Source of the DNA: a virus
Length of the DNA stretch: 43,710 nt
IMG/VR virus record: IMGVR_UViG_3300044712_000403
Span: 1-43,710 of that record
Strand: one strand, 5' to 3'
How positions within the stretch are numbered: position 1 is the first letter of the stretch; each line of letters starts with the position of its first letter. The translations under genes and the position numbers were made by a program. Below the pieces are notes generated by a model. That model saw only the letters and a list, made by a program, of their open reading frames with translations, did no database searches and was not told the DNA's origin. This document shows, piece after piece, positions 11,226 through 35,228 of the stretch.

Positions 11226-14200
11226 TTAATTCGGCTTTATATCGTCTAATCCTTGGTTACGAGTTTCATTTTGATACTCACCTACAATGGCTTTCTTTTC
11301 TTCCATCTCTTCTTTGTTAGCTAGATTAGTTACCTCAAAGCTATAATCCAACTCCCAATCTATTGAGCCCATACCAGCACCACTATCAAAAGAAATACCT
11401 AGTTCAGTTAGTTCCCACTCTGCTTGAAACACATCGTCAAATTGCTGTTTGCTGGTAGGATAGAAAGAAACATGAACCCATTTTTCTGGTGAAAGCTGTG
11501 GCTGTTCCGGTGGTTCTGAAATCTCTTCAATTTTAGCTGGTTCTATATCACTCTGAATACCAGCTTTAGCTAACGCCTTAATAACAGAAAGAGTATGTTT
11601 ATAAGCCAATTCTACATCTTGTTCATTCAGTATTGACTTTATTTCAAGGGCTTCTTTTAGCTGATGTCTCATTGGGTATTCGCCTCTTAAATTAGTCAAC
11701 TTGTCCTCCAAAGTTACTATCATAGCTTTGTACGCTTTCTCTGTACCATAAAATTTAGCTAGAATTTGCATAGCTAATTTCTTTAGGTAGCCCATATTTG
11801 GTTTTGTTGTTTCAATAACATAATCCAAAAATTCTCCAAGAGTTTCTGGTGTATATTCTGTTTTCAATACCCTTAAAGTTTCTTCTAAAATCTCTATTTG
11901 TTTGCTAGGTGGATATGATTGGAATTCACTATAATTAACCCATTTACCAAAATCTTTTGTTACATCACGCATAGCATAAATAGCCATAGGGATTAGAACG
12001 GCATACATAGCCAAACCAGCTTCAGGAGTTAAACCTTCATTTAATTGCTGTGATTCTTCAGTTAAATTACGCTTTTTGCGTTTTTGGTGGTAATAATCTC
12101 TAACATTTATAGCTTCTAATGCCACATTTATATGTTCAAGCAATTGTAACTTTAGCTTTCCATTATCTAAATATTGTGTAAGTTCTTTTTCATATTTACG
12201 AAGTGGCGGAGCTACAGAAATTAAATGTTGTATATAGGCTGATATATCATCGAGAGTCTCTATTTTATTTTTAACATCTAATACAAGTTCTTTTTGCTCT
12301 TCTGGCGGTAAAGAAAGATAGGCAGAATGTAATTTAACAAAGGTATCACTAGCTAATGTTTCTGGTAGGCATTTAAGCCACCAAAATAATAGTATTATAT
12401 AATCTTGTTTGCTTAAAACATCCCAAGTATATTGACTGTGAGTTTTAGCTTCCTCAAAAGGTAATCTACGGCCACCCATAGCTTTTTCTCTTTCCAATTG
12501 TCTTTTTTCATATTCAGCTTCAACATATTCTTTTCTACTCTTTTCGGCGGCGGCCTTTGAAAGAGCCATTAACCTTTGATAATCTCTTTCAATCTTTTCT
12601 TCTTGTATGTTTCCTATTTCAAAACCCTGCTTTATGTATTGCTTTTCAAGTGAGTATAGAACAGCATCTTCAGTTGGGTCTGGGTATCTAATAAGGGCTT
12701 CAGCTTCAACTTCAGCCAAATCAAAATCCTTATCAGAAGGAAGGGCAAAAGGAACTACTTTTGTTGTTTTTTGCATTCTATTAATATAGGCATCCCTAGC
12801 TGCGTTTGTTGCCCTCCAAGCCTTAATCATAGCTGTTGTATAGTCATTATCCATTAAATCATCTTCTTTGTTTCCAAATTCGCCACGTCTTTCTAATCTT
12901 CTATTAACCATATCTCTTATTGTAGCTTCATCTGGGTCGGGGTATTTAGCAATAGCTTCTTCTTCAATTTCAGAATAAGTCCTAGCTTCATTTAATTGCT
13001 GTGATTCTCTTAAATCACATTCTTCCAGTTTCTTGTCTTTCCTTCTATAATTAGCAATAATCTTTTTTCTAGAAACAACTTTAGTCTTAATGGTTTTACC
13101 GTCAGCATCATCAATACTTAATTGCACATCACCATTAGGGGTAATTGAATCCACGAAAGCATCAAAAGTTTTTCCACTATCTGAATAATAAATAATAGGG
13201 TCTCCTTCGCAAATAGGGTGACCATTCTTATCTACTGTGTGTCCGCTTCTCATACTATTTGATTCTTTTAAGTGTTCTTTGTCAATAGTAAGGTCTTTAA
13301 CATTACCAACAACTAACAATTCTTCTGGTAGGAATAGGAAAGTGTTTGAAAATGCTGGACAAAATACAACAACTTCATCATCAGTAAGTTCTTTTACTTC
13401 GCCTTCTTCACCATCAAAAGAATCAATAGCAACAGACGCACCAATAAAAATGGGCTTTCCTTCCATATCTTTTAAATGCGATTCTGTTTTAGAATATACC
13501 TTTTGTTGAAATTTATATGGTGGGGTTGCTTTTGCTTCTGTTATAGGCATTAAAGTCATAATACTGTTGTAGCTTTCTAATGTTACAGGTTCGCCTTTTG
13601 TGTCTAATATAGAAACAATATTGTTATCATTTTTCAATACAAAAAATACATCGTCAACATTATAATCTACTATTTTAGCATAAACCCAAGCCGTATAACC
13701 AGTCTTTTGCCAGTCTTCCCAAGTTTTAGAATCTATATTCCAAACATTTGTAAGCTTATTTTCATCAACAAATTTCTTAAACTCCTCATAAGAAGGAAAA
13801 CTTCTGCCAGATATTCTATTGGCAGCTTTACTAGAATCAAATACTTGTTCGTTTAAGCTCTGTCTGTTCATAGTCTTTGTCCTTCTACTTTCAAAAATAT
13901 TGTCTTCGCTTTCCACCCAATCAACCATCATATTTTCTTCCCACAATTTCTTTGCTACTTGGAAATACTCTTTTCTAGCAGAGGTTAAAGGGTGGTGGTA
14001 ATTATCTACTGTCACATATTGTAAAGGGTTTCCGTATTTCTGTTTTAAATTGATTAGTATTACTTCTACATCATACAAATCGTGTTTATTTTGAACAAAC
14101 AAAAACATTACCCAAGGCTTCTTATAATGATAGAAATGGTTTTCTTTCTTATCTGGAGTTGCTGTACACCATATATGAGGAGTTAATTCGCAATATTCAA

Positions 14201-14348
14201 GAAAGCGTATCTCGTTTTGACTGTAATAAATAGACGCTTCCATATCCTCAAGATTTACAAAATAATAATTCTCTGTTTCTGCAACAAGTTTAGAATCAGG
14301 AAATTGTCTTAAACCTTCATCTATGAACTGTTTAGGCGTTAGTCTCAT
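11226..14348 (-). CDS. 1040-aa multi-domain protein, probable capsid-interior polyprotein
   Basis: The N-terminus MRLTPKQFIDE|G resembles the T4 capsid-targeting peptide MKTYQEFIAE|A, which the prohead protease removes. Further (L/I)-x-E sites followed by A, G, S or Q separate modules: after E167, E271, E362, E454, E771, E899 and E909. Two are full ESQQLNE linkers (448-454 and 765-771). Modules include SH3-like small barrels (about 294-350 and 372-432), a tandem duplication around EEEAIAKYPDPDE (about 459-522) and EAEALIRYPDPTE (548-612), a helical region (634-758) and a domain with a hydrophobic stretch (772-895) shared with the 1196-residue protein. The ATG overlaps the upstream gene by 17 bases and has AAGGA 9 bases before it. 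Processing is inferred; exact functions are unknown. Confidence 0.7.
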   Translation of the reverse strand: MRLTPKQFIDEGLRQFPDSKLVAETENYYFVNLEDMEASIYYSQNEIRFLEYCELTPHIWCTATPDKKENHFYHYKKPWVMFLFVQNKHDLYDVEVILINLKQKYGNPLQYVTVDNYHHPLTSARKEYFQVAKKLWEENMMVDWVESEDNIFESRRTKTMNRQSLNEQVFDSSKAANRISGRSFPSYEEFKKFVDENKLTNVWNIDSKTWEDWQKTGYTAWVYAKIVDYNVDDVFFVLKNDNNIVSILDTKGEPVTLESYNSIMTLMPITEAKATPPYKFQQKVYSKTESHLKDMEGKPIFIGASVAIDSFDGEEGEVKELTDDEVVVFCPAFSNTFLFLPEELLVVGNVKDLTIDKEHLKESNSMRSGHTVDKNGHPICEGDPIIYYSDSGKTFDAFVDSITPNGDVQLSIDDADGKTIKTKVVSRKKIIANYRRKDKKLEECDLRESQQLNEARTYSEIEEEAIAKYPDPDEATIRDMVNRRLERRGEFGNKEDDLMDNDYTTAMIKAWRATNAARDAYINRMQKTTKVVPFALPSDKDFDLAEVEAEALIRYPDPTEDAVLYSLEKQYIKQGFEIGNIQEEKIERDYQRLMALSKAAAEKSRKEYVEAEYEKRQLEREKAMGGRRLPFEEAKTHSQYTWDVLSKQDYIILLFWWLKCLPETLASDTFVKLHSAYLSLPPEEQKELVLDVKNKIETLDDISAYIQHLISVAPPLRKYEKELTQYLDNGKLKLQLLEHINVALEAINVRDYYHQKRKKRNLTEESQQLNEGLTPEAGLAMYAVLIPMAIYAMRDVTKDFGKWVNYSEFQSYPPSKQIEILEETLRVLKTEYTPETLGEFLDYVIETTKPNMGYLKKLAMQILAKFYGTEKAYKAMIVTLEDKLTNLRGEYPMRHQLKEALEIKSILNEQDVELAYKHTLSVIKALAKAGIQSDIEPAKIEEISEPPEQPQLSPEKWVHVSFYPTSKQQFDDVFQAEWELTELGISFDSGAGMGSIDWELDYSFEVTNLANKEEMEEKKAIVGEYQNETRNQGLDDIKPN
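12031..12056 (-). repeat. ESQQLNE linker repeat, copy in the 1040-aa gene (second)
   Basis: Minus strand encodes ESQQLNE|GL; core GAATCACAGCAATTAAATGA. With its flanks it matches the copy at 33829-33854 over about 28 bases, because the module that follows (GLTPEAG...) is also shared. Confidence 0.8.
12987..13007 (-). repeat. ESQQLNE linker repeat, copy in the 1040-aa gene (first)
   Basis: Minus strand encodes ESQQLNE|AR with the same core GAATCACAGCAATTAAATGA. It joins an SH3-like module to the duplicated YPDP module. Confidence 0.8.
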
Positions 14349-14793
14349 TGTCCATCTTCCTTATACCAGCGTTTATGGTTTCGTAAGTACCTTTATGTTT
14401 TCCTTCTAAATCCTGGGACATAATCATTCTACATTTCCAAATAACCGCACTATCAAACGCATCTGACTTTATGAACTCAACATCTTCTTGTCCATTTATC
14501 TTTTCCTTCTTTACCCAATCACCAAGCAATCCATTGTAGGTGTATCCTACCATTCTTTCAACATTAGTGTGTCCAGCAATTATTAGCCAAAGACATCTAG
14601 CAAGGACTTTACCAAACAAATGGTCCCAAAAACTTACGGTAAATAATTGGTATATCACTTGCTTTAAAAGAAAAGAATAAACATTTTTCTGTTCCTCTCG
14701 TTCTTTTAATAGAAGAACAGTAGCAATCTTTCCAGTTGCAAAAGTATAAAAAGATTGTGCTAATTCCCTTTCTCTTTTAAGGTCTACAGCCAT
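14332..14793 (-). CDS. Hypothetical helical protein, paralogue of a domain in the 513-aa protein
   Basis: 153 residues, helical. Residues about 45-125 align with residues 130-208 of the 513-residue protein encoded just upstream: IIAGHTNVERMVGYTYNGLL against IIAGDTKTEEEIGLTYSMLY, then W.......N.........SD.FD. The ATG overlaps the stop of that gene (TAATG), with AAGGA 7 bases before it. The gene looks like a stand-alone copy of a domain also found within a longer protein. It lies among prohead genes between protease and scaffold, so a head role is likely. No known family is recognised. Confidence 0.6.
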   Translation of the reverse strand: MAVDLKRERELAQSFYTFATGKIATVLLLKEREEQKNVYSFLLKQVIYQLFTVSFWDHLFGKVLARCLWLIIAGHTNVERMVGYTYNGLLGDWVKKEKINGQEDVEFIKSDAFDSAVIWKCRMIMSQDLEGKHKGTYETINAGIRKMDNETNA

Positions 14794-16334
14794 TATTTAT
14801 CCTTTTTAAAGTGGTTAATAAAAGACTCTCTTGCTTCGTTTATAGAATCCTTTTGTATCTTAACTGGTTTGTTCTTATCACTAGTTATAATAGGACGCTT
14901 TTGTGATGGTCTATTGGTTTCTTTGATTTCTTCTTCTTTCTTATCATTTAATTTACTCTTATCAAATGTCTTTTTACATTTTGAGCAATAGAACCCAGGC
15001 TTTCCACCAGTCTTAAAACTCCACTTAACTTCACTATTACATTTAGGACAATACTTTGGGGAAGCTTTCTTGTCTTCCTTCTTAAACGGTTTCTTTTTCT
15101 TTTTGGCTTCATCTATTTCTACTGGTACAAGTTTCTTTGTAACTCTTAAAGCCTCTCTAACAGGTTCTTTAAGTTCTTCTGTTTCACTTTCTGGTATCTC
15201 TTCGTCTTCTTTGGGTGCTGGAGGTGCTTGCTGGTCTATAGGGTCTACATCAACAATAGTAACTTCTATTGAAACTTCATCAAGGTCAAAAGCATCGTCT
15301 CCGTCGTCTATCGTAGCATCCCAATTTGTTACATCTTCTAAATAATCCTTCACTTTTGCTTTGGCTTCTTCTTCATCATCAGCAGTTACAAGAACTTTAA
15401 CCATAGTTGTATCATCGCAATTTATGATAGGGGGTCTATCATAACCTATATTTTCACCACCCTCAATATGCAGTTCTTTGTGTTCTGGTGCTAATTCAAT
15501 GTCCTCCATTTCATAAGCCAAGAAATCAGAACTTGCCGTTACATACAAATCTTCTTTAGCTATTGAGGTAGTCCATTGCATACTTATATTAGCCATAACC
15601 GCATATTTGTTCATTCCATACTCTCCTTTATTTGCTGTTGGTGCTTTGGTTTCTTTAACAACTAAAGTTTTGCTAATAGTTTTGACAAAATCTCTATCTG
15701 CTTTTTCTTGTTGCAAAGCTTTTTTACTATAAGCTAAAACCTCTTTATCAAAGTCTTCTGATTGTAATACCTCTTGTGAAAGTTTATTAATTCTATTATG
15801 AAAAATCCAACTTCTATACAACATAGAATATGTTAATCCTATTTCTTCTTCTGTTTTGGTATCACCAGCTATAATATTATTAACTGTGGCAACAATTAAC
15901 TTATTAAGCCAATTTTCCATTACTTTAGGGACTAATAACCCCCCTAATAAATTTCTAGCTAAAAGAATAAGAGAATTTAATGCTTTTTCCCCCTCTTTTT
16001 CTATTACTTTATCCCCAACTCTTCCTTTCATAAAATTGTAAAAATCTCTAGCAAACACAGAAAAGAAAGAGATAAAAGCTTCTTTTGTGTAGGTAAGATT
16101 ATTAAGATTATACAATCTTTCTTTTTTCTGTTCTTCATAATTTATATGGCGTTCTGGTATATGAGACCAATGATTTCCTTCATTGTCTAACAATGTATAA
16201 TCTGGGTGTTTTAATTGTACTTCTTTCCCTTCATAAGTTTTTGTTGTATAAGTTACATCTATAACAACCATTTGTACATCATTTAGAGTAACCACATCTC
16301 CAATTGAAAATTTGGCTGTTTTGGGTGTGTCCAT
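14793..16334 (-). CDS. 513-aa modular prohead-region protein with zinc ribbon
   Basis: Visible parts: an SH3-like N-terminus (residues 8-65, FSIGDVVTLND); a helical domain (84-210) shared with the 153-residue protein; an alpha/beta domain (243-364) resembling the stand-alone 136-residue protein (V.ADDEEEAKAKVKDYL against VEATDEKEAIKKAKTAL); an acidic linker (370-395); a Lys-rich stretch; and a zinc ribbon with CPKC (429/432) and CSKC (450/453). Possible protease sites are EIDE|A (after E409) and SINE|A (after E500). It starts at an ATG overlapping the protease stop, with AAGGA upstream. Its position beside the protease and these sites suggest an internal head protein. Function is unknown. Confidence 0.62.
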   Translation of the reverse strand: MDTPKTAKFSIGDVVTLNDVQMVVIDVTYTTKTYEGKEVQLKHPDYTLLDNEGNHWSHIPERHINYEEQKKERLYNLNNLTYTKEAFISFFSVFARDFYNFMKGRVGDKVIEKEGEKALNSLILLARNLLGGLLVPKVMENWLNKLIVATVNNIIAGDTKTEEEIGLTYSMLYRSWIFHNRINKLSQEVLQSEDFDKEVLAYSKKALQQEKADRDFVKTISKTLVVKETKAPTANKGEYGMNKYAVMANISMQWTTSIAKEDLYVTASSDFLAYEMEDIELAPEHKELHIEGGENIGYDRPPIINCDDTTMVKVLVTADDEEEAKAKVKDYLEDVTNWDATIDDGDDAFDLDEVSIEVTIVDVDPIDQQAPPAPKEDEEIPESETEELKEPVREALRVTKKLVPVEIDEAKKKKKPFKKEDKKASPKYCPKCNSEVKWSFKTGGKPGFYCSKCKKTFDKSKLNDKKEEEIKETNRPSQKRPIITSDKNKPVKIQKDSINEARESFINHFKKDK

Positions 16335-17023: not shown

Positions 17024-17032
17024 AGTTGCTCC

Positions 17033-17329: not shown

Positions 17330-17330
17330 T

Positions 17331-17741
17331 TTATTTCCTTTCCTTTACGTAGTTTAAGGAAAATTCTACATTATTTAAACTAGCATGTATATTTTTATTT
17401 TCATCACCAAAAGATGCATACCAACATTTGGCCATATTAAGTGCCGTTTTAGCTTTTTTTATTGCTTCTTTTTCATCTGTAGCTTCAACTATAATACCTG
17501 TTGTACCCTCTAAAACATTATCCCCCAATTTTCCAAACGCCTTAAATGTGGTTTTTAATGGGAAATAATTATCCAATGAAGACGCATTAGAATAGTAGTC
17601 TTCTGGTTTAAATTCTAGTTTCAAATTAAACTCTGGATTCCTATAATAAACAACCAATAATATCCTAACTTGAAACTCAACATCAAATGTTTTCATTACC
17701 TTTAAATCTGGTTTTTCTTTAGAACCAAATAAATTAAACAT
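17331..17741 (-). CDS. Hypothetical 136-aa protein, stand-alone copy of a 513-aa protein domain
   Basis: An alpha/beta protein. The stretch IIVEATDEKEAIKKAKTAL followed by W.A and a ..VE.S.NYV ending resembles residues 311-364 of the 513-residue protein. The start overlaps the last eight bases of the 912-residue gene, so it is co-translated. It lies between that gene and the protease operon. Function is unknown. The shared domain suggests both proteins bind the same partner in the prohead. Confidence 0.55.
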   Translation of the reverse strand: MFNLFGSKEKPDLKVMKTFDVEFQVRILLVVYYRNPEFNLKLEFKPEDYYSNASSLDNYFPLKTTFKAFGKLGDNVLEGTTGIIVEATDEKEAIKKAKTALNMAKCWYASFGDENKNIHASLNNVEFSLNYVKERK

Positions 17742-20472
17742 TAGGCTCTTTATCCTCTAAATCTATGCTAGGTGCGGGTGCGGGGTTTTCTTCATCTACT
17801 AATTCATCGCTTTCATCTTTCAATGTTTCAATGAAATCCTTAACATCTTTTTTAACACCATCAGAAGGTTTAGAAGTAAGCTGTTCCTTCAACTTATCAA
17901 GCAAAGCTATATACTTATCGGCTTCTTGCTTTAACTGGTATACATCTTTGTTCTTTTCAACATACGCATTTATTTCATCTTCTACTGATAAGAGTTGCTT
18001 ATAGAGGTCTAGCACTTCTTTGTCCTCACCTTGTAGTACTTGAGGTGGGATTCTACTTGTCATAACCTCATCTAAATCTTCTCCGTGTGGGGAAGAATTA
18101 CCATATAATTTATTGTAATTTTCATCGGGGTTGTCTACACCAGGATTAGTTTTGTTAGTTAAGCCAAATAACAAGTCTTCTACTTTTGTTCCTTCTATTT
18201 GGTCAGAAGGAATTTTAATAGTTATTTCAACTTTGTCATCATCAGATTCTACATTCGCTTCCGGTGCAGGTGTGTCGTCCACTACTTGTGCTATTGAAGA
18301 GGCTACTTCATCGTATGCTTCTTCAGGATATTCTGTTTTTTCTGGTTCTGCCAATTCGTCTACATCTTCTGTACTTTCAATTCCTTCTTCAGAGGCAGGT
18401 TCAGCGGCATCTGTTTCTGGGGTTTTAACAACACCCATACTTCCAAGATTGTTAAGGTCTAGTGTGTGAAGTCTATTAGTTGACATATCAGAAATCTTTG
18501 CTATATTTGCTTCTTGGTCAAGAGAAACTAGTTCATACTCACCAATAGGGATTACTTGTCCATCATCGTCTAATATGTTTTCATCTACAACTTCAAGTAT
18601 AGTTCCTTCAGACAAAGACTTAACAGGAGAGAAATAGTTGTTGTACTCTTTCAACGAATCAACACTCACAACAGACTTTACACCCTTTTCGTTTGCCAAG
18701 GCACATTCGTTGTTATCTTCGTCTATAGAAACAACAGTATAAACTTCTTCTGGTGCAAGTTTTACGCCTTTGATGTCTTTAATGTCATCGTCAGATTCAA
18801 AGATAAAGGCATCTCCAAGAGTAATAGTCTTGGGTTCTTCGGCAAAACTATCATCATAGGCTGGTGCTTCGGCAGGAACATCATCTACCGCAAATGCATC
18901 TTCGCCTTCTTCTGGATATGCTGGGGCTTCTGCTGGAACACCAACTTCTTCATCTTCCATACTAGGATAGGCTGGGGCTTTGTCTGCATTATCGCCAGGT
19001 TCCCCAATGGCTTCTTCAATAGGAGGGGCTTCATTTTCATCAGATGTAACTGGAATATCATTTAAAATATCTTCTATATTTTGTTGCTTATTGTCTTTAG
19101 GTTCTTCTTTACCAGCATCAGGTTCTTCTTCGTCTAAAATATCATTTATGTCAACATCAGGTGCTTTCTTTTTTTCTGGTTGTTCTATATCAGGGAATTC
19201 CTCTTCTTCAGTTTCTTCTGTTGCTTCATCTGTCTCTGTAATTTCTGCTTCTGCATGTAAGTCTTCCAAATACTTTTCAAGGTTAGTTATGCTACTCATC
19301 AATTTCTTAAAGCCTTTTTCATTTTCTTCAAAGGTTTCATCTGCTGACAAACTTAATTCAGAAACTTCATCCTTAAAAACACTCTTTAATATTGATAAAG
19401 CATTTTGTAATTCTTCCTCGTTTGTCATTGTTGGAGATTCATCTGGTATAATTTCCGTCTTACCATCTTCTTCATCTATAGGTAATTCGTCTTGTGAAAC
19501 AGCTTCTTTAAAATATGTCTTTGCTTCACGCATTAGAACGCCTTCATATTTCTTGCCACCACCAGATACTATAGCACCCTTATCGGTAGCTTCAATAACA
19601 TCATAAGTTCCAGACTTTAATACATTACCCTGATGGTCTAGTATTTTACCTTCATCAGTAGGTTCAACAATTAACTTATCTCCTTTTATGGCTTTAATAG
19701 GTGTAACTTTTGAGCCAGATAGATTTGGCTGAACTTTAAACTCATTTAGTAAAGCTCTTCCGGCCGTCTCTAAAATAAAATAAGTCAATTCTCTTGACTT
19801 ACTAGGAGGTAAAACACTATTGATTGAGCGATATAAATTCTTGGCGTTTAGGCTTTCGTTGTATTGTTTACCAAAAGCAAGGTTTAACAACGCTACGGCA
19901 GCCATTCTAGCCTGGTCATAGGTCATTTCTATCTGTTCTCTGAAGAATTTGATCAGCTTGTCCCTAGCCCTTAACCCTAAATAGGGGATGGCTTCAATTA
20001 ATACAGTCTGATTGTTCTTTATTTTTCCACCTAATTTGGTTAAATATTCTTTGAAGAGCTGATTTTCCATCAAACAATCAAATACTCTTTTCCTAACAGC
20101 CTCACTAATGGGAACTACACCATCACAAGGCAAAGCGAAAAGATATAATTGCTCGTTCAAAGCCTCATATAACTCCTTCTTACGCAAGCTAGCCAATGAG
20201 GGCTTACCTTCAACAACTGCTGATACAAAAGAATCTACAGCAGTTTTAAATCTGTAATCATATTCTTCTGTGTTGAGGTCTAGCCTATTTACTTTGCTAG
20301 TCCCTTCAACGAGATACATAGCACTATTTTTATGACTTAAAATAAATGCTTTTTCCTTGTCAAACCCAAGTATTGTATAGTCACTTCCAATTGTTTTGTA
20401 ATTTTCTAAAAGGTATTCAACTTTTGTGCTATAAAAATCCTTAAGGTCGCCATAAACACTTTTATTTTCCAT
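17734..20472 (-). CDS. 912-aa acidic prohead-region protein
   Basis: The ATG at 20472 is chosen over a GTG nine bases upstream because AAAAGGAG overlaps the GTG and lies 8 bases before the ATG. The N-terminal about 230 residues are a folded, mostly helical domain (NEQLYLFALPCDGVVPISEAV). Then come small beta modules and a very acidic middle (about residues 340-560) with repeats of the type EAPAYP (EAPAYPEEGED, EAPAYDDSF). More barrel-like segments and a helical coiled C-terminus follow. Candidate (L/I)-x-E sites include LLNE|F and PIEE|A. Acidic composition and position between portal and protease suggest a core or internal head protein, comparable in place to T4 gp67/68. No known family is recognised. 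Confidence 0.6.
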   Translation of the reverse strand: MENKSVYGDLKDFYSTKVEYLLENYKTIGSDYTILGFDKEKAFILSHKNSAMYLVEGTSKVNRLDLNTEEYDYRFKTAVDSFVSAVVEGKPSLASLRKKELYEALNEQLYLFALPCDGVVPISEAVRKRVFDCLMENQLFKEYLTKLGGKIKNNQTVLIEAIPYLGLRARDKLIKFFREQIEMTYDQARMAAVALLNLAFGKQYNESLNAKNLYRSINSVLPPSKSRELTYFILETAGRALLNEFKVQPNLSGSKVTPIKAIKGDKLIVEPTDEGKILDHQGNVLKSGTYDVIEATDKGAIVSGGGKKYEGVLMREAKTYFKEAVSQDELPIDEEDGKTEIIPDESPTMTNEEELQNALSILKSVFKDEVSELSLSADETFEENEKGFKKLMSSITNLEKYLEDLHAEAEITETDEATEETEEEEFPDIEQPEKKKAPDVDINDILDEEEPDAGKEEPKDNKQQNIEDILNDIPVTSDENEAPPIEEAIGEPGDNADKAPAYPSMEDEEVGVPAEAPAYPEEGEDAFAVDDVPAEAPAYDDSFAEEPKTITLGDAFIFESDDDIKDIKGVKLAPEEVYTVVSIDEDNNECALANEKGVKSVVSVDSLKEYNNYFSPVKSLSEGTILEVVDENILDDDGQVIPIGEYELVSLDQEANIAKISDMSTNRLHTLDLNNLGSMGVVKTPETDAAEPASEEGIESTEDVDELAEPEKTEYPEEAYDEVASSIAQVVDDTPAPEANVESDDDKVEITIKIPSDQIEGTKVEDLLFGLTNKTNPGVDNPDENYNKLYGNSSPHGEDLDEVMTSRIPPQVLQGEDKEVLDLYKQLLSVEDEINAYVEKNKDVYQLKQEADKYIALLDKLKEQLTSKPSDGVKKDVKDFIETLKDESDELVDEENPAPAPSIDLEDKEPNV

Positions 20473-20490
20473 AGGAAACACTCCTTTTGG

Positions 20491-20989: not shown

Positions 20990-23713
20990 CTATTCTTCTT
21001 CATCCTCTGGGGGTGGGGGGGTAAATTCATTATTATTGTTAGAAGTTTTATGGTTTTGAGATTCAATTAAAAACAATCCTGTTACATTTTTAAGTTCATT
21101 TCCAGTCCTAGACATAAGGTTCTTCAAAGGTTCTGGCATCAAATCCACTGGGTCTGTGCTTTCCTGTGCTTCTGTTATAAGACCTTTTGATTTAGGAGAA
21201 CATAGCTTATTCAAGTATAAAGTCTTATAGTACATAAAGTTAAGGAATTGTTTGTGCTGTGTTGTTGCATTCATAGATTCTTTCAATAAAGTCCTGTCAT
21301 CTTTTCTTCTTCTAATGGCTTCACTAGGCATACCCATTTCACCACCACCCATTTCTGCTGGAGGTGCAGGGGCCATTTCTGTTGCTGGGGCTGTTTCCAT
21401 AGGTGCTGTTTCCATACCCATACCTTGTTCTCCGCCAGTGGGTTCAAAGGAAGGTTCTTCTGAAGCCCCGAAATCACCACCCATATCACCCATACCTCCT
21501 CCTAAATCTGTAGGTTGGGCTTGGGCTGTAATATCACCTTTCTTTTCTTTCTTTGCCATCAACAATTCTTCTTCGGCTTGTGTTAAATTGAATATGTTTT
21601 TAACAATATACGGATAAGCTGAAGGACCAAAAACTTCCTTCATTATCTTGGCTGTTTCCGCTTTTGTCTTTAAGCCTTCAAGTCTAGCATTTTCTTCAAT
21701 AAACGAAGCAGAAGTCCACTTGAAACCTATCTTATATTTATCAAGTTTTTGTTTTAATTGTGTCAATTTTTCTTGACTAGGATTATTAATTCCAAGTAAT
21801 GAATAAAGGTGCAAATAGCTAATCTTTTCACAGCCTTCTGACAATGCTTCTTGGAATCTAGTAACAACTTTAGCAAACCTAGTGTCCTGTTGAACAAGAG
21901 TAGCTCTGTTGATTTCAGTATCATAAGCCAAATATGCCTTGGGAACTCTCATTCCAGCATACATTTTCTTATGGAAGTATTCAACGTCAGCAATCTTATC
22001 AAGGTTAGAGTTAAAGGTAAATATGCCATTACCAAGTAGGAAAGTATGGTTATCGTGGTTATACTCTTTACCATCAACAGTTATAGTTCCAACTGCTATC
22101 TTTTCTTCTAAAGGCTCTACTTTAACCACCTTTGTAATATTGATAGTTAATTGAGGTAGCACTTCTAGTTTATCAGTAGGCTCATAATAATCTGGTGCGG
22201 TTTCTTCGGTATGAATTATTTTTGTCTGCTTGTAAATATCATCGTTGGTTATAATGCTGAAAATAGGGTCATTAGGTTTGAGGTCTTTTGCTTCAGTTTT
22301 ACCCTTCCCATATACAGGGAATTTATGGTCTGGTGTACAGATTATTTCTTTGCCATTTTCAAATGTAATCTTAACAATATCAGCATTTACACGGGTTACA
22401 TCAGCAAAAGAAATATCACCTAATGAAAGTTGTCCGTTGCTAGGATTAACTGAATAGACTTTCATTTTATCGCCAGCATGGAACTTGTCAATAACATTCT
22501 GTAATGTTACTTTCCCTACATTGTGGATATAAAGTTCTGCGTCAAGAGGTAAGCAAGCCTCTCTCAACTCATCAACTTCAACTTGCTTCTTATCTCCAAG
22601 TTGAGGAATGTAATAGTCTTCGTCTACACCAATGAACCTAAAGGACTTATCAACATCTTCTATTGAACTGAAGTTTGTTCCACCACCAACAATCCAAGTG
22701 TTAGATGAAGCCTGTCTCTTTAAGATTTGTTTAATCTGCTCAATTCTCTCCCATACCTTTGACGGAGGAAGATTACCAACATTGACATAGAAGATTTTTC
22801 TTGAAGGTGCTCTAACCATACGATACACCATCATAGCATCTTCAACCCTCTTCAAGATTTCCCAAGTCTGTCTGATACTATCAAGGTGAGAAGTTCCATA
22901 AGGGTGATAGGTCAACTTATTATCTAGCTTGAAATGGATAAGTTCACCATCAAAATATACGATATAGCTATCAGGATTTGAAGGAATAAAATATGAAATT
23001 GTAGAAGGTTGCCAAAGTATCTGTGAACCATAATCCCTAGCAACAGTAGGAACTTCACCTGACTGTTTAGGGGTTACTACATAGACATAATAAGGCAATG
23101 AGAAGTTGTCATCAACCTTATAAATCTGGTCCATATCATAGAACATCTTTGTATCTACAACACCCTTCTTATCAAGGACGGGTTCTACAAACCAATCACC
23201 ATACTTGGCAAGGTTTCTAGCCCAAGACCACATCTTTTTAGAGATGTTTAACCTATTGAAAAACAAATCATTCAAATAGGATTCAAACAACTGCATTTCA
23301 ATCTTTTCACTTTCAGAAGGGTCAGTATCAGAAAGTAGTTTTACTTCTACTTGGAACACTTCATTGTTAAAACCTCTGATACAAACTTCATCAGCTATAG
23401 TATCAAGAACACTAGCTATTTCAGGGTGCCAGTCTTCCATAAGGTCATACAAGTGATACCTTACTTTTCTATGAACATTAAGAGTGGCAAAGGTATAAAC
23501 CTGCATATCAGTAAGAGGAACAGAATTTCTATCTTGAACCAACTGATATAATGTAAGTAATTGTTCTTTACCTGACTTACCACCACCAAGGTCATAGTTA
23601 AGAAGTTCTGAATTCCTACGAGTGTAACGCATATTTCCAATAGTTGTTCCTACTTCTACTTTGGAAAAAGCGTCAAGAAAATTTGAGAATAGCGGTAGCT
23701 TAAATTTAGCCAT
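20990..23713 (-). CDS. Portal protein (T4 gp20-like) interrupted by a mini-intein
   Basis: The 907-residue frame is about 725 residues after removal of the intein (387-568). The N-terminal portal part matches gp20-type proteins: WHPEIASVLDTIADE, DNKLTYHPYGTSHLDSIRQTW, the helix EDAMMVYRMVRAPSRKIFYV, and after the intein NLDKIADVEYFHKKMYAGMRVP, the conserved crown/stem region. The C-terminal tail is low complexity (GGGMGDMGGDFG and Met/Pro/Ala-rich repeats, about 740-800). The ATG has AGAGGTG upstream. It follows the large terminase by nine bases. The stop is TAG and overlaps the start of the ART-like gene. The portal is the dodecameric DNA channel at one capsid vertex. Confidence 0.92.
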   Translation of the reverse strand: MAKFKLPLFSNFLDAFSKVEVGTTIGNMRYTRRNSELLNYDLGGGKSGKEQLLTLYQLVQDRNSVPLTDMQVYTFATLNVHRKVRYHLYDLMEDWHPEIASVLDTIADEVCIRGFNNEVFQVEVKLLSDTDPSESEKIEMQLFESYLNDLFFNRLNISKKMWSWARNLAKYGDWFVEPVLDKKGVVDTKMFYDMDQIYKVDDNFSLPYYVYVVTPKQSGEVPTVARDYGSQILWQPSTISYFIPSNPDSYIVYFDGELIHFKLDNKLTYHPYGTSHLDSIRQTWEILKRVEDAMMVYRMVRAPSRKIFYVNVGNLPPSKVWERIEQIKQILKRQASSNTWIVGGGTNFSSIEDVDKSFRFIGVDEDYYIPQLGDKKQVEVDELREACLPLDAELYIHNVGKVTLQNVIDKFHAGDKMKVYSVNPSNGQLSLGDISFADVTRVNADIVKITFENGKEIICTPDHKFPVYGKGKTEAKDLKPNDPIFSIITNDDIYKQTKIIHTEETAPDYYEPTDKLEVLPQLTINITKVVKVEPLEEKIAVGTITVDGKEYNHDNHTFLLGNGIFTFNSNLDKIADVEYFHKKMYAGMRVPKAYLAYDTEINRATLVQQDTRFAKVVTRFQEALSEGCEKISYLHLYSLLGINNPSQEKLTQLKQKLDKYKIGFKWTSASFIEENARLEGLKTKAETAKIMKEVFGPSAYPYIVKNIFNLTQAEEELLMAKKEKKGDITAQAQPTDLGGGMGDMGGDFGASEEPSFEPTGGEQGMGMETAPMETAPATEMAPAPPAEMGGGEMGMPSEAIRRRKDDRTLLKESMNATTQHKQFLNFMYYKTLYLNKLCSPKSKGLITEAQESTDPVDLMPEPLKNLMSRTGNELKNVTGLFLIESQNHKTSNNNNEFTPPPPEDEEE
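22010..22555 (-). other. Mini-intein in the portal (residues 387-568)
   Basis: Begins at C387 (CLPLDAELYI, block A) and ends at N568, with Ser as the first residue after it. Block B is ICTPDHKFPV with the expected T-x-x-H (T460, H463). Blocks F/G are NHTFLLGNGIFTFN|S. The length of 182 residues leaves no room for a homing endonuclease. The penultimate residue is Phe (F567), where most inteins have His. Insertion is in the conserved segment before the DVEYF helix. Removal would join ELREA to SNLDK. Confidence 0.88.
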
Positions 23714-28364: not shown

Positions 28365-28687
28365 TACTTTCCCCAAGTTTCCTTTAGATGAATAATCACA
28401 TCATCAAGAGTGGTGAAAACTGAAATTTCTGACTTCTGTGGGCCTATACAACCACAAGTATCTCCAGCTTTCTTTGCTTCTGCCTTGGCTTTCTTGTACT
28501 CTTCTTCAGTCATTTCCAAAGTAGTGTTCAATACAAACCCATTCGTAACTTTAGCTATCGTAATATCCTTAACAAACATATCATACTCCTTTTCTGATTC
28601 CAAGTTTTCCGCACCATAATCCCTTTCAGCAACAGGGGAATCATAGTAATCATATTGATTAATGGTATAAAGTATATTCCTACTCAC
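28364..28687 (-). CDS. Hypothetical 107-aa protein with GTG start
   Basis: The GTG start overlaps the TGA of the HU-like gene (GTGA), and AGAGG lies 8 bases before it, so the two are translationally coupled. The protein has a Tyr-rich N-terminus (YTINQYDYYDSP), an alpha/beta centre and a Lys/Ala/Glu helix followed by DTCGCIGPQ. It starts a chain of overlapping genes leading to the recombinase. No domain is recognised. Confidence 0.55.
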   Translation of the reverse strand: MSRNILYTINQYDYYDSPVAERDYGAENLESEKEYDMFVKDITIAKVTNGFVLNTTLEMTEEEYKKAKAEAKKAGDTCGCIGPQKSEISVFTTLDDVIIHLKETWGK

Positions 28688-28938
28688 TTTACATTCCTCT
28701 TAAAAGGCTTCCACTTTACAGTCTTGTCCTTTGCGTTTCCAGCCTTACCAAACTTCCTAGTCTTAAGTTCAAAAACCCCAAAATTGGAAATATAAAACTT
28801 CTTTGGTGTAGTGCTGGCTGTGGTTTCCTTAAGGTTTTCAGCAATAGTGTCCTTAAGAGCCTCAAACAGAGTTTCACAATCCTTCTGGGTCATACCTGTC
28901 TTTTCACTAATCTTCTTAATCAAGTCTTTCTGATACAT
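28684..28938 (-). CDS. HU/IHF-like DNA-binding protein (84 aa)
   Basis: Matches the HU fold: MYQKDLIKKISEKTGMTQKDCETLFEALKDTI as the two N-terminal helices, then FYISNFGVFELKTRKF as the beta-sheet with the conserved NFG.F segment, and a basic C-terminal part (VKWKPFKRNVK). The length is typical (about 90). It would bend and coat phage DNA. A second, divergent HU-like gene is immediately upstream, so the two may form a heterodimer. Ribosome site AAGGAGG. Confidence 0.85.
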   Translation of the reverse strand: MYQKDLIKKISEKTGMTQKDCETLFEALKDTIAENLKETTASTTPKKFYISNFGVFELKTRKFGKAGNAKDKTVKWKPFKRNVK

Positions 28939-28948
28939 AGTGTCCTCC

Positions 28949-29245
28949 TTAACCTATAATACCTTTTCTGAACAAGCTTGATACGACAAACTTGAACATC
29001 TTCTTGGGTTTAGATACAATTTCCTTGCCTTCGGTAAAAATAGTCTTTACCTTTCTAGGTGCTGTCATTTTGGGATAAAACCTTCCAAAATTAACAAGGG
29101 AAACTTCTTCACCCTTCTGTAGAGATTCATTAATTGTTTCAGCAAAAGCCTGAACAAATCCCTGCACATCCTTTTTAGAGAGTTCTGTGGTCTTCACAGC
29201 CTTCTCAACGAATACATCACCAAGATTAACATAATCACTCTTCAT
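28949..29245 (-). CDS. HU/IHF-like DNA-binding protein (98 aa), divergent
   Basis: Start at 29245 (MKSDYVNLGDVFV), chosen because AAGGAGG lies just upstream; an open frame extending to 29320 has no ribosome site. HU features: N-terminal helices (VEKAVKTTELSKKDVQGFVQAFAETI), then VSLVNFGRFYPKMTAPRKVK with NFGRF, and a basic end. It is more diverged from bacterial HU than the 84-residue neighbour. The upstream gap carries repeated TATACAC boxes that may regulate it. Confidence 0.75.
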   Translation of the reverse strand: MKSDYVNLGDVFVEKAVKTTELSKKDVQGFVQAFAETINESLQKGEEVSLVNFGRFYPKMTAPRKVKTIFTEGKEIVSKPKKMFKFVVSSLFRKGIIG

Positions 29246-29293
29246 AAAAACCTCCTTAAAATAAGTTTCGGTTGAACTGCTAAATCTATCCTT

Positions 29294-29335
29294 TATACAC
29301 TTCATAAAACAACTATACACAAAAATAGTGTATAG
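29294..29335. promoter_or_regulatory. TATACAC box cluster and inverted repeat before the HU-like genes
   Basis: Two direct TATACAC boxes at 29294-29300 and 29314-29320 are exactly 20 bases apart. An inverted copy extends the second into a perfect inverted repeat: CTATACAC (29313-29320), seven-base spacer, GTGTATAG (29328-29335). The layout suits an operator or promoter control site. A weak terminator after the preceding gene is an alternative. Confidence 0.45.
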
Positions 29336-30026: not shown

Positions 30027-30027
30027 T

Positions 30028-30393: not shown

Positions 30394-30394
30394 A

Positions 30395-30448
30395 TTAGTC
30401 CAACTTGATGAAATTCCCTTCTTCGTCTAAAATCCACGAAAGTAACAT
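30395..30448 (-). CDS. 17-codon ORF, possible coupling leader
   Basis: Reads MLLSWILDEEGNFIKLD and stops one base before the ATG of the next gene. Its GGGAGATTAAG leader is identical to the ribosome site of the 97-residue gene just upstream. The next gene lacks a site of its own, so ribosomes may be delivered through this frame. It could also be a degraded remnant of a duplication. Confidence 0.35.
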   Translation of the reverse strand: MLLSWILDEEGNFIKLD

Positions 30449-30458
30449 CTTAATCTCC

Positions 30459-30752: not shown

Positions 30753-30753
30753 C

Positions 30754-31110
30754 TTAATCTCCCATTAACATATAGTTTCGTAATTTTTCTTTCTTGTATA
30801 AAGAAATTCTTTCTTTCTTTATTGCTAGAAAATGCTTTAGGAATTCTTCTGCTTCATCTTCTTTATACCCAAAATCTTGTGCGTTTATTATCATCTCTTT
30901 GTCTGAAACAGGTGTAATAAGTCTATAATAATCATATATTTGCTTAAGAACATCGAACCAATCAGATAAATATTCATCAGACCAATTAGTGGCTTCTTTA
31001 GTTTGAATATATTCAGCTATCAATGCGTTTGTTTTGCCATCTCTTCTATCGGCATTACGCAAGTCAGCTAAATACTTGTTATATCCGTCTTTGTAATACT
31101 TTCTTTTCAT
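30754..31110 (-). CDS. Hypothetical helical 118-aa protein
   Basis: A Tyr/Lys/Asp-rich helical protein (MKRKYYKDGYNKYLADLRN at the start) with ribosome site AAGAGGA. It is nine bases after the upstream gene in the same run. No known domain is visible. Basic and acidic patches alternate, which could suit a binding protein, but nothing specific can be claimed. Confidence 0.5.
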   Translation of the reverse strand: MKRKYYKDGYNKYLADLRNADRRDGKTNALIAEYIQTKEATNWSDEYLSDWFDVLKQIYDYYRLITPVSDKEMIINAQDFGYKEDEAEEFLKHFLAIKKERISLYKKEKLRNYMLMGD

Positions 31111-31119
31111 AATATCCTC

Positions 31120-31623
31120 TTAACAGTCAAATTTACATAGATATATTATGACTGTTGCACCAGATACACCTTTTTGTAAAGCTACTGAAAATGGAAGTAT
31201 TCTTTGGTCAAAACCTTCTACTGCTGTAATAGTTGAAGGATAATTTGTCTTTAATACAAAGAAGCTATTTACATCAAATACGCTACCATTATTGATATTT
31301 CTAGTTGTATCGTCTGTGTCTCCAAATTTTACTAGGATAGGTGCTGATGTTTCAATGTATACGAAATCAACATCATCAGCAGAAGTGTCACCAGAAAAAC
31401 CGCAAACAGACTTATCTATATTGTAATATGTTTGGTTGGAATTTGACAAGTTAAGAGTAAAAAAGAATTCACCATCGCTTTTAATCACCCGCCTATCTAG
31501 AACAGGTAATTTGTGAAGGATGTTCTTCAGGTTATCCCTAACTAAAATCCTATAATCAGATACTAAAACCTGATTGTTTGGATATTGCGAACATTTTTGT
31601 AAAAGTTCATATGTTAGAGGCAT
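31120..31623 (-). CDS. Hypothetical virion-type protein, paralogue of the 218-aa protein
   Basis: 167 residues, beta-rich, strong ribosome site (AAGGAG). It aligns with the 218-residue protein at 29370-30026 over its whole length but lacks the Ser/Thr/Gly insert; shared landmarks are LKNILHKLPV, YIETSAPILVKFG and the hydrophobic C-terminal strand ending in Cys. Two such paralogues in one operon, separated by three small helical genes, suggest an ancient duplication. Role unknown, probably structural. Confidence 0.6.
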   Translation of the reverse strand: MPLTYELLQKCSQYPNNQVLVSDYRILVRDNLKNILHKLPVLDRRVIKSDGEFFFTLNLSNSNQTYYNIDKSVCGFSGDTSADDVDFVYIETSAPILVKFGDTDDTTRNINNGSVFDVNSFFVLKTNYPSTITAVEGFDQRILPFSVALQKGVSGATVIIYLCKFDC

Positions 31624-31637
31624 CTATCTCTCCTTAA

Positions 31638-34600
31638 TTATTGTTTGTCATCATAAGAATACATTACTGGACCGTAGTGTTCAAAGTATTCATCAGCAAG
31701 CTGTTTAGCTATTAGTAATGCCCCAGGTTCGTCCTTATCATCAAATACTGTGTGATTAATGAATTTGGCTAATTCAACAGAACTATTAAATTCAAATATA
31801 GCATCATTCTTTGGATTTTCAGTCCTTACAACAAACCCCCATTCTGACTCTGGTGCATCTATTAAATAATACTTTTCTTCTAGGTTTTTGTGTGGCATTT
31901 TAGCTGGAGTTTTGGTTTTCTGGTAGTAATACGAACCTTCTTCAATAATGTCTTTCTCGTTATAACCATCAATTATAGTATATTGCATTTGAGATTCTTT
32001 GATGTTCTTTGCCCTTAAAGCAAACTGTAATTCCCTAAAGAACTTCAAATCTTCTTTAGAGAATTTTCCATCTTTGCTCTTTTCTTTCTTTGCTTCTAGC
32101 TTCTTTATTTCTTCCTTAATTCTTGATTTAGGTATGGTTTCGTCTTCTGGAATGCCTAACTTCTTATGAAGCTTACCTTTATTCTTTTCAGGAACAGCAT
32201 CTTGCATCCACTTTTCTGTCTTTTTCTTTTTAGCTTCAAACATAGCCTGACAATATTTGCATTGCTTCTTTCCCTCTACAGTATTATATTCATGGCTTGC
32301 ACAACTAGGGCAAGTGAAAATCTTATCTTCTTTGTTTTTCTTGAAATGTTTATCTGCTATAGCATTTACTTCATTTTCAAATTCTTCTTCCGACATCATA
32401 GAAGATGTTTCATCTTCTGGAACACCATAAGGGGCTGTATCTAATCTGCCGTATTTTTTAATAAACGCTTCTTCATCATCAACAGGTGGTTTCGGGGGCA
32501 CTATACCCTCATTTATTTGCTGTGATTCTTCAACAACCCCATTAGACACCCACACAAGTCTACCTGGTGCATTGGCTTCATCTTCAGGGTTGTAATCGGT
32601 TATCTCTAAATCATTGGGGTTATAGGGTATCGTTTCATTTGTTTCATTTATTTTAACATTTGCCGTCCATATTTTAGTTTTAGAATTTCTTTTACCATTG
32701 ACTAAAACCCCCTCTTTACCATCTGGGGTTAACACTTGTGACCCGTCAAACAAAAGATGTTCATTCTTATCTACAGCATAACCAACGACACCTATAGCAT
32801 AACCTCTTCCATAACCACCACCACGGTTAATAAGTTTTTGTCTTTGTTTGGTTATCACAGGGGTTTTAGCTTCAGTTATTTGCTGTGATTCATATAAGTG
32901 CTCTTTGTCATATTCAGCAACAAGAGCTTCTATTTTTTTGAATAGATTAGGATATTTTTTGTCGTAATGTTGGCTGAATGCATAATCATAAATATCGTCA
33001 GCAAGTTCAGGGGTTATTTCTAGCCTACCACTATCTAACATCTTTTTAACTACACCTGGCTCACCCTTTTTGATAGCAAATAAAATGTAATGCTCACCAT
33101 ATAGTTTTGAGACGTTGTTAAGAGATGCCCCTTTATCAATAAGGAGTAGAGCAACTTTTGTAGCCCTATCCCATATTGCCAAATCAAGCAACTGATACTT
33201 CTCAAAGAATTTTGCCCCTGTAAGTGGACCATAACTCTTTATACCAAGAAAGCTATTCACATCATGTTTAGTCAAAAAATCTTCCATAAAAGCAACATTG
33301 TCCTTTGCTATTGCTTCAACGGCTTGATTGTTTGCTATATTGTTTGTATTCTCTGCCTCTTTTTCTGCCTTACTCTTAAAGCCTAGAAAGCCCTCTTTTA
33401 ATTGCTGTGATTCGTTAATACTATAGTCTGTATCTATAATATTACTTGGCCTTCCTATTCTATGAGTTTGGTTAAATTCTTCATATAAACCCTCTAATTG
33501 GTCTATTATTGTAGAAATCGTGGTTTCGTATAATTTTTCTTTGTCGCCAAAATGAGTGATTAGCTTAAAAATACTCTTTTTAATTGGGGTTAAATTGGTT
33601 TTTGATGTTGTGTAAAGATAATCAATAAACTCCCCATAAGTTTCTGGTGTATAGGTATTTTTAAGTTCATCTAAAATTTTCTCTAAAATTCTAATCTTTT
33701 TCTCTATAGGAAATGAATCAAATTCATTATAAGAAATATACTTCATTGCATCTTTACCCATACTATAAACGGCATGAATAGCAATAGGGATAAGAAGCAA
33801 ATATAACACTTGACCCGCTTCTGGGGTTAAACCTTCATTTAATTGCTGTGATTCCTTAATTTCTTCTTTAAATTTTGCAACTTTCTTCTCGCCATGGCAC
33901 GACGGACAAGGCAGAATTCCTATTCCAGTATCAACAGAACCTTCACCAGAACATTCAGAGCAGGGAATTGTTTTTAAGGCATCCAGTTCAGCATCTAACC
34001 TTTCAATTTCTCTATACATAGCTGAAACTAAATCAGGATTAACCTCTCTCCCTTCCCTTCGTGTAAGCCAATATTCTTGGTCTTGGAACCTTTGCGATAA
34101 TGCCTCTTCTATCTTTTCTTTTTTCTCAAATACCTCCAAACAATTGTTTTCTTCCAACCAATTAAATTCTTGTTCTGGAAAACACCCCAAAATATCATCT
34201 TGTTCTTCTACTTTGGAAAGTTCTATTAATATTTTTTTTGCTTTTTCACTATCATCATTTTCGTAAGCATCGAATACATCTTGAATTTTTTGTTCAAATT
34301 TATCTTTAGGATATTTGTTTTTTTCTTTTCCTTCTGCTTCTTTTATATTTGCTTTTTCTTTTCCACCATAAGTAGGAGGTTGCTTATCCAACCCTTTTTC
34401 CTTACAGCCTACACAGCATTGTAAGTCAGCACCATAAGCTGCCTTAACAGATTTACCCATAGGCTTACCACACCAATTACAACAATTAGAAGATTTTGCT
34501 TCACCTAATACAGTTCTAGGGTCTGCTGTTCTAACATCTATTTCTGGGTGTTCTGCCTGAATTTCATCAGCCTTTTCAATAGTTTTGTCTATCATTTCCT

Positions 34601-35228
34601 CAACGCCTTCTTCTGGCATATCTGGAAATCTAGTCTTAATAAAAGTTCTAAATTGTTCCAATTCAGTTGCGGTAAGGTCTGCTCTTGTAATTGCTTCTTT
34701 AATCATTCTACCTTTTCTTTTTTTAGCTTCAAACATAGCTTGACAATATTTACAAGTTTTTATGTTATTGTCAGCTACTTCATATTCATGCCCACCACAA
34801 TTAGGACAAGTAAATACCTTGTTCTTTTCTGTTGCCATTTCTGTCTTTGGCTTATAGGTTGGGTTTGATTTTAATGTTTTAAGTTCTATCTTTTCTTGTG
34901 CCTTTGTTTTCTTTTCCTCACGACCAGCAGCTAGTAAGGTTAAAAGCAAAAGGAAGGGAGACTCTTTTAGTAAAGACACATCTGCTTTGGCTTGCTTACT
35001 TTCAAACATTTGATTTTGAATATATGAGGCAGGCATACCATTCTTAATAGTCAATGATATTAGGTTTTTTCTAGCATCCGTAATAGCAAGCATTAAAGAC
35101 TTGTATTTAGGACTCATATTTACAAGGTTATCATCTAGTATATTACCTTCAACAGCCTCTAATAAGTTTGTTATATGTTCCACTAAATCATATGGAAGAA
35201 TTACCCCATTTTCTATCTTAACAGCCAT
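31638..35228 (-). CDS. 1196-aa multi-domain protein, probable capsid-interior polyprotein
   Basis: A chain of small modules divided by (L/I)-x-E sites, mostly followed by A, G or S: after E24, E89, E178, E243, E297, E375, E465, E612, E786 and E907. Four are ESQQ(L/I)xE linkers (459-465, 606-612, 780-786, 901-907). Modules include a hydrophobic segment (91-101), a zinc ribbon (C141, C144, C159, C162), a second Cys cluster (249-253 and 271-275), a helical module shared with the 196-residue protein (305-372), a DnaJ-like CxxC pair (423/426, 441/444), a domain shared with the 1040-residue protein (466-600), an ankyrin-like part (about 640-775), an SH3-like module and a second copy of the zinc ribbon. 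Strong ribosome site and promoter motif upstream. Processing is inferred. Confidence 0.7.
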   Translation of the reverse strand: MAVKIENGVILPYDLVEHITNLLEAVEGNILDDNLVNMSPKYKSLMLAITDARKNLISLTIKNGMPASYIQNQMFESKQAKADVSLLKESPFLLLLTLLAAGREEKKTKAQEKIELKTLKSNPTYKPKTEMATEKNKVFTCPNCGGHEYEVADNNIKTCKYCQAMFEAKKRKGRMIKEAITRADLTATELEQFRTFIKTRFPDMPEEGVEEMIDKTIEKADEIQAEHPEIDVRTADPRTVLGEAKSSNCCNWCGKPMGKSVKAAYGADLQCCVGCKEKGLDKQPPTYGGKEKANIKEAEGKEKNKYPKDKFEQKIQDVFDAYENDDSEKAKKILIELSKVEEQDDILGCFPEQEFNWLEENNCLEVFEKKEKIEEALSQRFQDQEYWLTRREGREVNPDLVSAMYREIERLDAELDALKTIPCSECSGEGSVDTGIGILPCPSCHGEKKVAKFKEEIKESQQLNEGLTPEAGQVLYLLLIPIAIHAVYSMGKDAMKYISYNEFDSFPIEKKIRILEKILDELKNTYTPETYGEFIDYLYTTSKTNLTPIKKSIFKLITHFGDKEKLYETTISTIIDQLEGLYEEFNQTHRIGRPSNIIDTDYSINESQQLKEGFLGFKSKAEKEAENTNNIANNQAVEAIAKDNVAFMEDFLTKHDVNSFLGIKSYGPLTGAKFFEKYQLLDLAIWDRATKVALLLIDKGASLNNVSKLYGEHYILFAIKKGEPGVVKKMLDSGRLEITPELADDIYDYAFSQHYDKKYPNLFKKIEALVAEYDKEHLYESQQITEAKTPVITKQRQKLINRGGGYGRGYAIGVVGYAVDKNEHLLFDGSQVLTPDGKEGVLVNGKRNSKTKIWTANVKINETNETIPYNPNDLEITDYNPEDEANAPGRLVWVSNGVVEESQQINEGIVPPKPPVDDEEAFIKKYGRLDTAPYGVPEDETSSMMSEEEFENEVNAIADKHFKKNKEDKIFTCPSCASHEYNTVEGKKQCKYCQAMFEAKKKKTEKWMQDAVPEKNKGKLHKKLGIPEDETIPKSRIKEEIKKLEAKKEKSKDGKFSKEDLKFFRELQFALRAKNIKESQMQYTIIDGYNEKDIIEEGSYYYQKTKTPAKMPHKNLEEKYYLIDAPESEWGFVVRTENPKNDAIFEFNSSVELAKFINHTVFDDKDEPGALLIAKQLADEYFEHYGPVMYSYDDKQ
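32509..32529 (-). repeat. ESQQINE linker repeat, 1196-aa gene (fourth copy)
   Basis: Minus strand encodes ESQQINE|GI; core GAATCACAGCAAATAAATGA, differing from the other linkers by one or two bases. Confidence 0.75.
32871..32891 (-). repeat. ESQQITE linker repeat, 1196-aa gene (third copy)
   Basis: Minus strand encodes ESQQITE|AK; joins the ankyrin-like module to the SH3-like module. The GAATCACAGCAA core is unchanged. Confidence 0.75.
33393..33413 (-). repeat. ESQQLKE linker repeat, 1196-aa gene (second copy)
   Basis: Minus strand encodes ESQQLKE|GF; joins the shared GLTPEAG domain to the ankyrin-like module. It begins inside INESQQ, which adds a second possible cut. Confidence 0.75.
33829..33854 (-). 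repeat. ESQQLNE linker repeat, 1196-aa gene (first copy)
   Basis: Minus strand encodes ESQQLNE|GLTP; identical at DNA level to the copy at 12031-12056 including the start of the following module. Confidence 0.8.

Follow-up and report, generated by a model that had tools for sequence, protein, structure and literature searches.

The stretch of DNA analyzed here (hereafter the window; 43,710 nt, positions 1 to 43,710 of the IMG/VR virus record IMGVR_UViG_3300044712_000403) is a 43.7 kb fragment of an uncultured T4-type phage that encodes terminase, the gp20 portal, the gp21 protease, a scaffold, the gp23 capsid protein and tail proteins. It also contains the genes of two long proteins of 1040 and 1196 amino acids (aa), polyproteins 1 and 2, in which the peptide ESQQ(L/I)xE recurs between small modules. 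An earlier note on this DNA, made from the sequence alone, proposed that both proteins enter the prohead and are cut at these linkers by the gp21-type protease into roughly 15–20 small products. Both open reading frames are present (Table 1), and the evidence below favors the view that they encode modular polyproteins of the phage head.

The six-frame translation of the window contains six copies in all of the motif SQQ(L/I)xE, every one of them in polyprotein 1 or 2. Each ESQQ(L/I)xE linker is followed by G or A, as the earlier note observed, and four of the six form double sites, (L/I)xE↓SQQ(L/I)xE↓(G/A), where arrows mark predicted cuts; cutting at such a linker would excise a hexapeptide. 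Close site pairs number 1 in polyprotein 1 and 3 in polyprotein 2, while 0.02 and 0.04 are expected. Compared with composition-preserving shuffles, (L/I)xE↓(A/G/S) sites are in clear excess in polyprotein 1 (9 versus 2.5 expected, z = 4.1) as well as in polyprotein 2 (15 versus 3.4 expected, z = 6.6), amounting to 24 sites where about 6 are expected. No comparable excess in the two proteins was detected for any of eight control motifs, in which residues were reversed, shifted or rearranged, E was replaced by D, K or Q, or E was followed by K, R, D or T. If all sites were cut, polyproteins 1 and 2 would yield 7 and 11 products longer than 50 aa, respectively. The total of 18 fits the number given in the earlier note. 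The predicted products have median lengths of 72 and 104 aa for the two polyproteins, keep Cys pairs intact and are devoid of coiled coil.

T4 gp21 cuts after L/I-x-E and, in internal proteins destined for ejection, removes the capsid-targeting sequence (CTS) propeptide (PMC9026906). The window protease matches Pfam S77, and its H73 and S132 align with H85 and S140 of T4 gp21. The LLKE↓A site of the window capsid protein (E61) aligns with the T4 gp23 cut FLTE65↓A66; the earlier note was right about both the protease and the capsid site. When applied to T4, the site-excess test singled out gp22 (9 versus 1.5 expected) and gp23, which are known gp21 substrates, and in other phages it pointed to proteins in the gp22 position, e.g. 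the product of the gene before gp23 in Sinorhizobium phage Phosso (17 versus 2.4). Polyprotein 1 is encoded inside the portal-protease-scaffold-capsid cluster, within a core block whose T4 counterpart has the order gp67/68/21/22/23, and its N-terminus, MRLTPKQFIDE↓G, resembles the CTS of T4 IPII/IPIII, MKTYQEFIAE↓A. The site excess, its calibration on T4 gp22 and gp23, the capsid site, the core-cluster position and CTS-like N-terminus of polyprotein 1, and the different linkers of relatives that obey the same rule (see below) strongly support, as far as sequence can tell, that polyproteins 1 and 2 are gp21-type prohead-protease substrates cut at their linkers.

The modules themselves were described in the earlier note as unrelated small domains. 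They are distinct, except that a helical module of about 130 aa is common to both proteins (47% identity over 133 aa) and that a zinc ribbon occurs twice in polyprotein 2, which contains two further Cys-rich modules; polyprotein 1 also has an internal duplication of about 65 aa. The homology of the shared module begins at the first residue of the linker and, in polyprotein 1, ends 2 aa short of the next predicted cut. AlphaFold2 predicted a helical core at residues 47–131 of this module with moderate confidence (predicted local distance difference test score, pLDDT, about 70–80) and values <50 for the linker and tail, while single-sequence structure prediction gave a pLDDT of 47 for the module between ESQQLKE and ESQQITE. 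Foldseek returned no significant structural match, and searches of Pfam, NCBIfam and PDB returned nothing that names a window module, only weak zinc-ribbon and DksA-like matches. A reading of the ESQQLKE–ESQQITE module as ankyrin repeats, made by eye, received no support from the searches. No relatives of the window's own modules were found, and its module borders are therefore drawn from homology within the window and from other phages.

We searched for relatives with the linker DNA pattern, of which about half of the matches looked like chance, and with a gp21 profile scan of viral contigs, which gave at least 80 loci, selected by similarity to the query, 45 of them ≥10 kb. Scans of viral contigs with the window gp21, capsid protein, polyprotein 2 or shared module singly gave no close relatives. 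The earlier note had suggested looking for SQQLNE linkers next to gp21 homologs. The DNA pattern led to free proteins beginning with MKIYDIIAESQQLNE↓A or MRELINLVESQQLNE↓A, whose N-terminal ESQQLNE suggests that the linker peptide also acts as a CTS-like leader; gp21 was not found on these contigs, which are fragments. The same pattern led to G001 (158.9 kb), which does encode gp21, together with three long proteins whose linkers read (D/N)ESLxE and which contain 17, 15 and 13 sites versus 3.9, 5.2 and 3.6 expected.

Among the gp21 loci listed by the profile scan, at least nine encode one or more proteins in which a linker is repeated. ESINE occurs six times in the L135 polyprotein, which adjoins gp21; ESVNE linkers are found at L079, L114, L143, L149, L153 and L154; L090 uses EGKLTE, L110 has a mixture of ESVNE and ESVVSE, and L133 is a weaker case. 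The polyproteins of relatives span 370–1717 aa, are encoded near gp21 or elsewhere in its genome, and each have a linker of their own (ESINE, ESVNE, EGKLTE or DESLKE). The capsid cut site of the clade recovered by the gp21 scan is QL(V/I/L)xE↓(A/S); V is allowed at capsid P3, and V at P3 of ESVNE thus fits. Predicted modular head polyproteins are a recurrent design, present in several uncultured T4-type phages.

Homology between modules tends to stop at the linkers: 25 of 56 internal homology ends lie within 8 aa of a linker versus 16% expected (P = 5e-7; the segments are not fully independent). A 60 aa module has the local linker on both flanks in L143, L154 and L079, and is flanked by other cut sites in L135. 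Some modules of relatives match free protein families. The family phrog_4264, which Bacillus and Enterococcus phages encode as a small free protein, is matched over profile positions 9–90 of 93 by a G001 module. In L135, a module with ESINE on either side corresponds to the second half of phrog_13953, known from Gordonia and Mycobacterium phages; DUF3008 is another such family. The core protein encoded directly upstream of gp21 varies in length: L132 and L149 have versions of 156 and 149 aa, a single insert brings it to 217 aa in L153, and in L154 it reaches 589 aa, with 427 aa placed between NISE↓A and ESVVNE↓AKSKRPVNRW, precisely at a cut site. This insertion shows how such chains can arise.

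Several contigs carried further proteins with related features. L005:137-3568 encodes a protein of at least 1144 aa with an HExxH segment, SQQLNE↓N, ESQQLNE↓G and terminal DUF4116 repeats, in which a possible ADP-ribosyltransferase-like domain and a KxDG segment reminiscent of ligase or nucleotidyltransferase motifs were noted by eye; it is possibly an effector polyprotein. The 1331 aa product of L009:3610-7602 (-) begins with the leader MRELINLVESQQLNE↓A and contains a peptidoglycan-binding domain as well as several (Q)DAGKDAE-like spacers. On the 414-kb contig G002, a 612 aa protein (L028) contains SKQMNE↓A and SQQMNE↓A; gp21 and gp23 are encoded in the same genome, which suggests M at P3 in that phage.

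Taken together, we consider it probable (about 0.78) that polyproteins 1 and 2 are modular head polyproteins that are carried into the prohead and cut by the gp21-type protease into about 18 domain-sized products. Each chain would consist of small, independently folding modules joined by the phage's own protease recognition peptide, ESQQ(L/I)xE↓(G/A). The polyproteins would join the prohead core together with the scaffold, polyprotein 1 probably via its N-terminal targeting peptide, and at maturation the protease would cut them, often twice per linker with the loss of a hexapeptide. By analogy with the T4 internal proteins, it is plausible that the products stay in the head, are present in the virion and are injected; some at least may exit with the DNA, like T4 internal proteins and Alt, and their functions may include host takeover. 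New modules would be added to such cassettes at cut sites that core proteins already have. Several points weigh against this reading. The structure predictions for two modules are weak, searches found no relatives of the window's own modules, and some predicted sites fall inside possible domains and may stay uncut. The polyprotein 2 gene is located about 15 kb from the protease gene and outside the core gene cluster, and its product lacks a clear CTS, the first site being at residue 24.

The main rival, which we regard as unlikely, is that both belong with gp22, gp67 and gp68 among the sacrificial core or scaffold proteins; they would then be cut to small peptides lost from the head, and their modules would have no role after assembly. 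T4 gp22 has a similar site excess, polyprotein 1 belongs to the core cluster, and the L154 polyprotein is an enlarged core protein, all of which such a scaffold would explain. The predicted products, however, are domain-sized, with intact Cys pairs and no coiled coil, as described above, and the modules of relatives occur as free proteins in other kinds of phage, which mere filler does not need. A separate coiled-coil scaffold, moreover, is already encoded in the window, which argues against a gp22-type scaffold in particular.

It is considerably less probable that the linkers serve, copy after copy, for targeting or docking, and hold a multivalent protein in the core as a chain that stays largely intact. 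ESQQLNE stands at the N-terminus of free proteins, as a T4 CTS would, and in the T4 CTS the residues needed for targeting are only partly the same as those needed for cutting (PMC9026906). Nevertheless, the part of the linker that is most constant across phages is the cutting part, (L/I/V)xE↓(A/G/S), double sites are common, and the P3 preferences of capsid and linkers agree. The linker DNA bears on another explanation, namely that the repeats are leftovers of DNA recombination or gene fusion without a role as protease sites. The sequence GAATCACAGCAA is identical in six of six window linkers, the chance of which from codon usage alone is about 8e-6, indicating that the copies derive from one another and were spread by copying. 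In L135, however, the ESINE peptide is invariant while its codons vary, which points to selection on the peptide, and linkers differ from phage to phage while the gp21 rule is kept in all; we consider an origin without protease-site function very improbable. The least probable alternative takes the two for polyvalent proteins as defined by Iyer et al. 2017, which would be injected in one piece, with any processing done by peptidases embedded in the chains themselves. It would account for multidomain, head-linked proteins, and the source paper itself draws the polyprotein analogy (PMC5512222), but no typical polyvalent or peptidase domain was found in either protein with Pfam, NCBIfam and PHROG (very diverged domains are possible) and the sites fit the phage's separate prohead protease.

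The favored reading, cargo modules released from a head polyprotein, has known parts: gp21, the CTS, multiply cut head proteins of the phiKZ type, and polyvalent proteins. T4 IPI-III and Alt are alike in the protease family, the L/I-x-E rule, the CTS-like N-terminus (of polyprotein 1) and a similar core gene order, but they are separate small proteins with one terminal cut each (two in Alt), whereas the window joins many modules by a repeated linker. T4 gp22, gp67 and gp68 also have many gp21 sites per protein and neighboring genes, but they end up as short fragments, most of which are lost from the head, while the spacing in the window is domain-sized and the modules are distinct. The inner-body and ejection proteins of phiKZ and SPN3US (gp93, gp53 and gp54) are head proteins that a diverged gp21 homolog cleaves at several sites; in SPN3US, 13 of 14 mapped cuts remove N-terminal propeptides, and a chain of alternating domains and linkers is undescribed there (PMC10052503). 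Polyvalent proteins of phages and plasmids likewise have many domains per chain and are likely co-delivered with DNA, but they are defined by other domains and embedded peptidases, unlike the chains built with repeated prohead-protease linkers in the window. RNA-virus polyproteins and retroviral Gag, in which a virus protease releases many products from one chain, are an analogy only, as there is no homology and the window polyproteins would be a cargo device of a DNA phage head.

What appears to be new is the chaining of distinct cargo modules by a reiterated prohead-protease site. A tblastn search with both window polyproteins and the L154 polyprotein against 50,697 phage records gave no counterpart (distant homologs are outside its reach), and the open-access papers searched, subscription literature aside, describe no phage polyprotein or repeated head-protease linker. 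The earlier note's remark that no T4-like phage was known to have internal proteins organized in this way holds for these papers and for the cultured phages searched, and is superseded by the several uncultured T4-type phages described above. If true, the favored reading would reveal a genuine polyprotein strategy for double-stranded DNA phages and a simple evolutionary route to load new proteins into the virion. A phage-specific repeated linker ending in (L/I/V)xE would be a sequence signature that flags candidate injected proteins of uncultured phages, with borders to the residue, and the roles and acquisition of T4-type internal proteins would become testable by survey. It also suggests a possible use, the packaging of several proteins at once in T4-based laboratory particles. 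More tentatively, and with a chance that we place a little below even, a cargo system may extend through the lineage, in which host-takeover modules in expandable polyproteins ride on core proteins, have protease-site junctions, are released jointly at maturation and are injected; a new effector would then be loaded simply by insertion at a cut site.

Table 1. Features of the window related to the two polyproteins and their gene neighborhood.
Feature	Position (strand)	Remarks
Polyprotein 1, 1040 aa	11226..14348 (-)	Flanked by gp21-type protease and scaffold genes; 9 predicted cut sites
Linker ESQQLNE↓A	12987..13007 (-)	Polyprotein 1 residues 448-454; double site LRE↓SQQLNE↓A
Linker ESQQLNE↓G	12036..12056 (-)	Polyprotein 1 residues 765-771
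Helical module, polyprotein 1	11652..12035 (-)	Residues 772-899
Polyprotein 2, 1196 aa	31638..35228 (-)	15 predicted cut sites
Linker ESQQLNE↓G	33834..33854 (-)	Polyprotein 2 residues 459-465; double site IKE↓SQQLNE↓G
Helical module, polyprotein 2	33411..33833 (-)	Residues 466-606; counterpart of polyprotein 1 module
Linker ESQQLKE↓G	33393..33413 (-)	Polyprotein 2 residues 606-612; double site INE↓SQQLKE↓G
Linker ESQQITE↓A	32871..32891 (-)	Polyprotein 2 residues 780-786; double site LYE↓SQQITE↓A
Linker ESQQINE↓G	32508..32528 (-)	Polyprotein 2 residues 901-907
Major capsid protein, gp23 type	7702..9414 (-)	Predicted maturation cut LLKE61↓A62
Probable gp22-type scaffold	9481..10464 (-)	Coiled coil; 4 predicted cut sites versus 1.2 expected; between core genes and gp23
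153-aa protein	14332..14793 (-)	Homologous to part of the 513-aa protein, whose N-terminal region matches
513-aa core-cluster protein	14793..16334 (-)	Cys4 motif; 3 predicted sites
gp21-type prohead core protease, 229 aa	16334..17023 (-)	Peptidase_S77
915-aa protein	17734..20481 (-)	Between portal and protease; acidic second half; 7 predicted sites versus 3.3 expected
Portal, gp20 type	20990..23713 (-)	Intein; C-terminal tail with three predicted cut sites

Some features of the neighborhood and of gp21 genes elsewhere were noted in passing. The portal intein matches Pfam Intein_splicing at residues 403-565, and the predicted prohead-protease sites in the C-terminal tail of the portal are LLKE↓S812, LITE↓A848 and LIE↓S884; T4 gp20 is reported as unprocessed (PMC5694885). 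Two neighboring short genes at 28684-29320 (-) have, by eye, the look of HU/IHF-type DNA-binding proteins. In W01 (LR756508.1), the gp21 gene at 156480-158204 encodes 574 aa, the protease being split by a long insertion; a 548 aa protein of W01, in which DLPE↓GS recurs, gave the impression of an unrelated repeat protein and was left out of consideration. At G001:C1:123912-125429 (L053) and L070:18257-19933, the prohead protease is fused to a long coiled-coil-like tail with 8–15 predicted self-cut sites, as if scaffold and protease were one protein.

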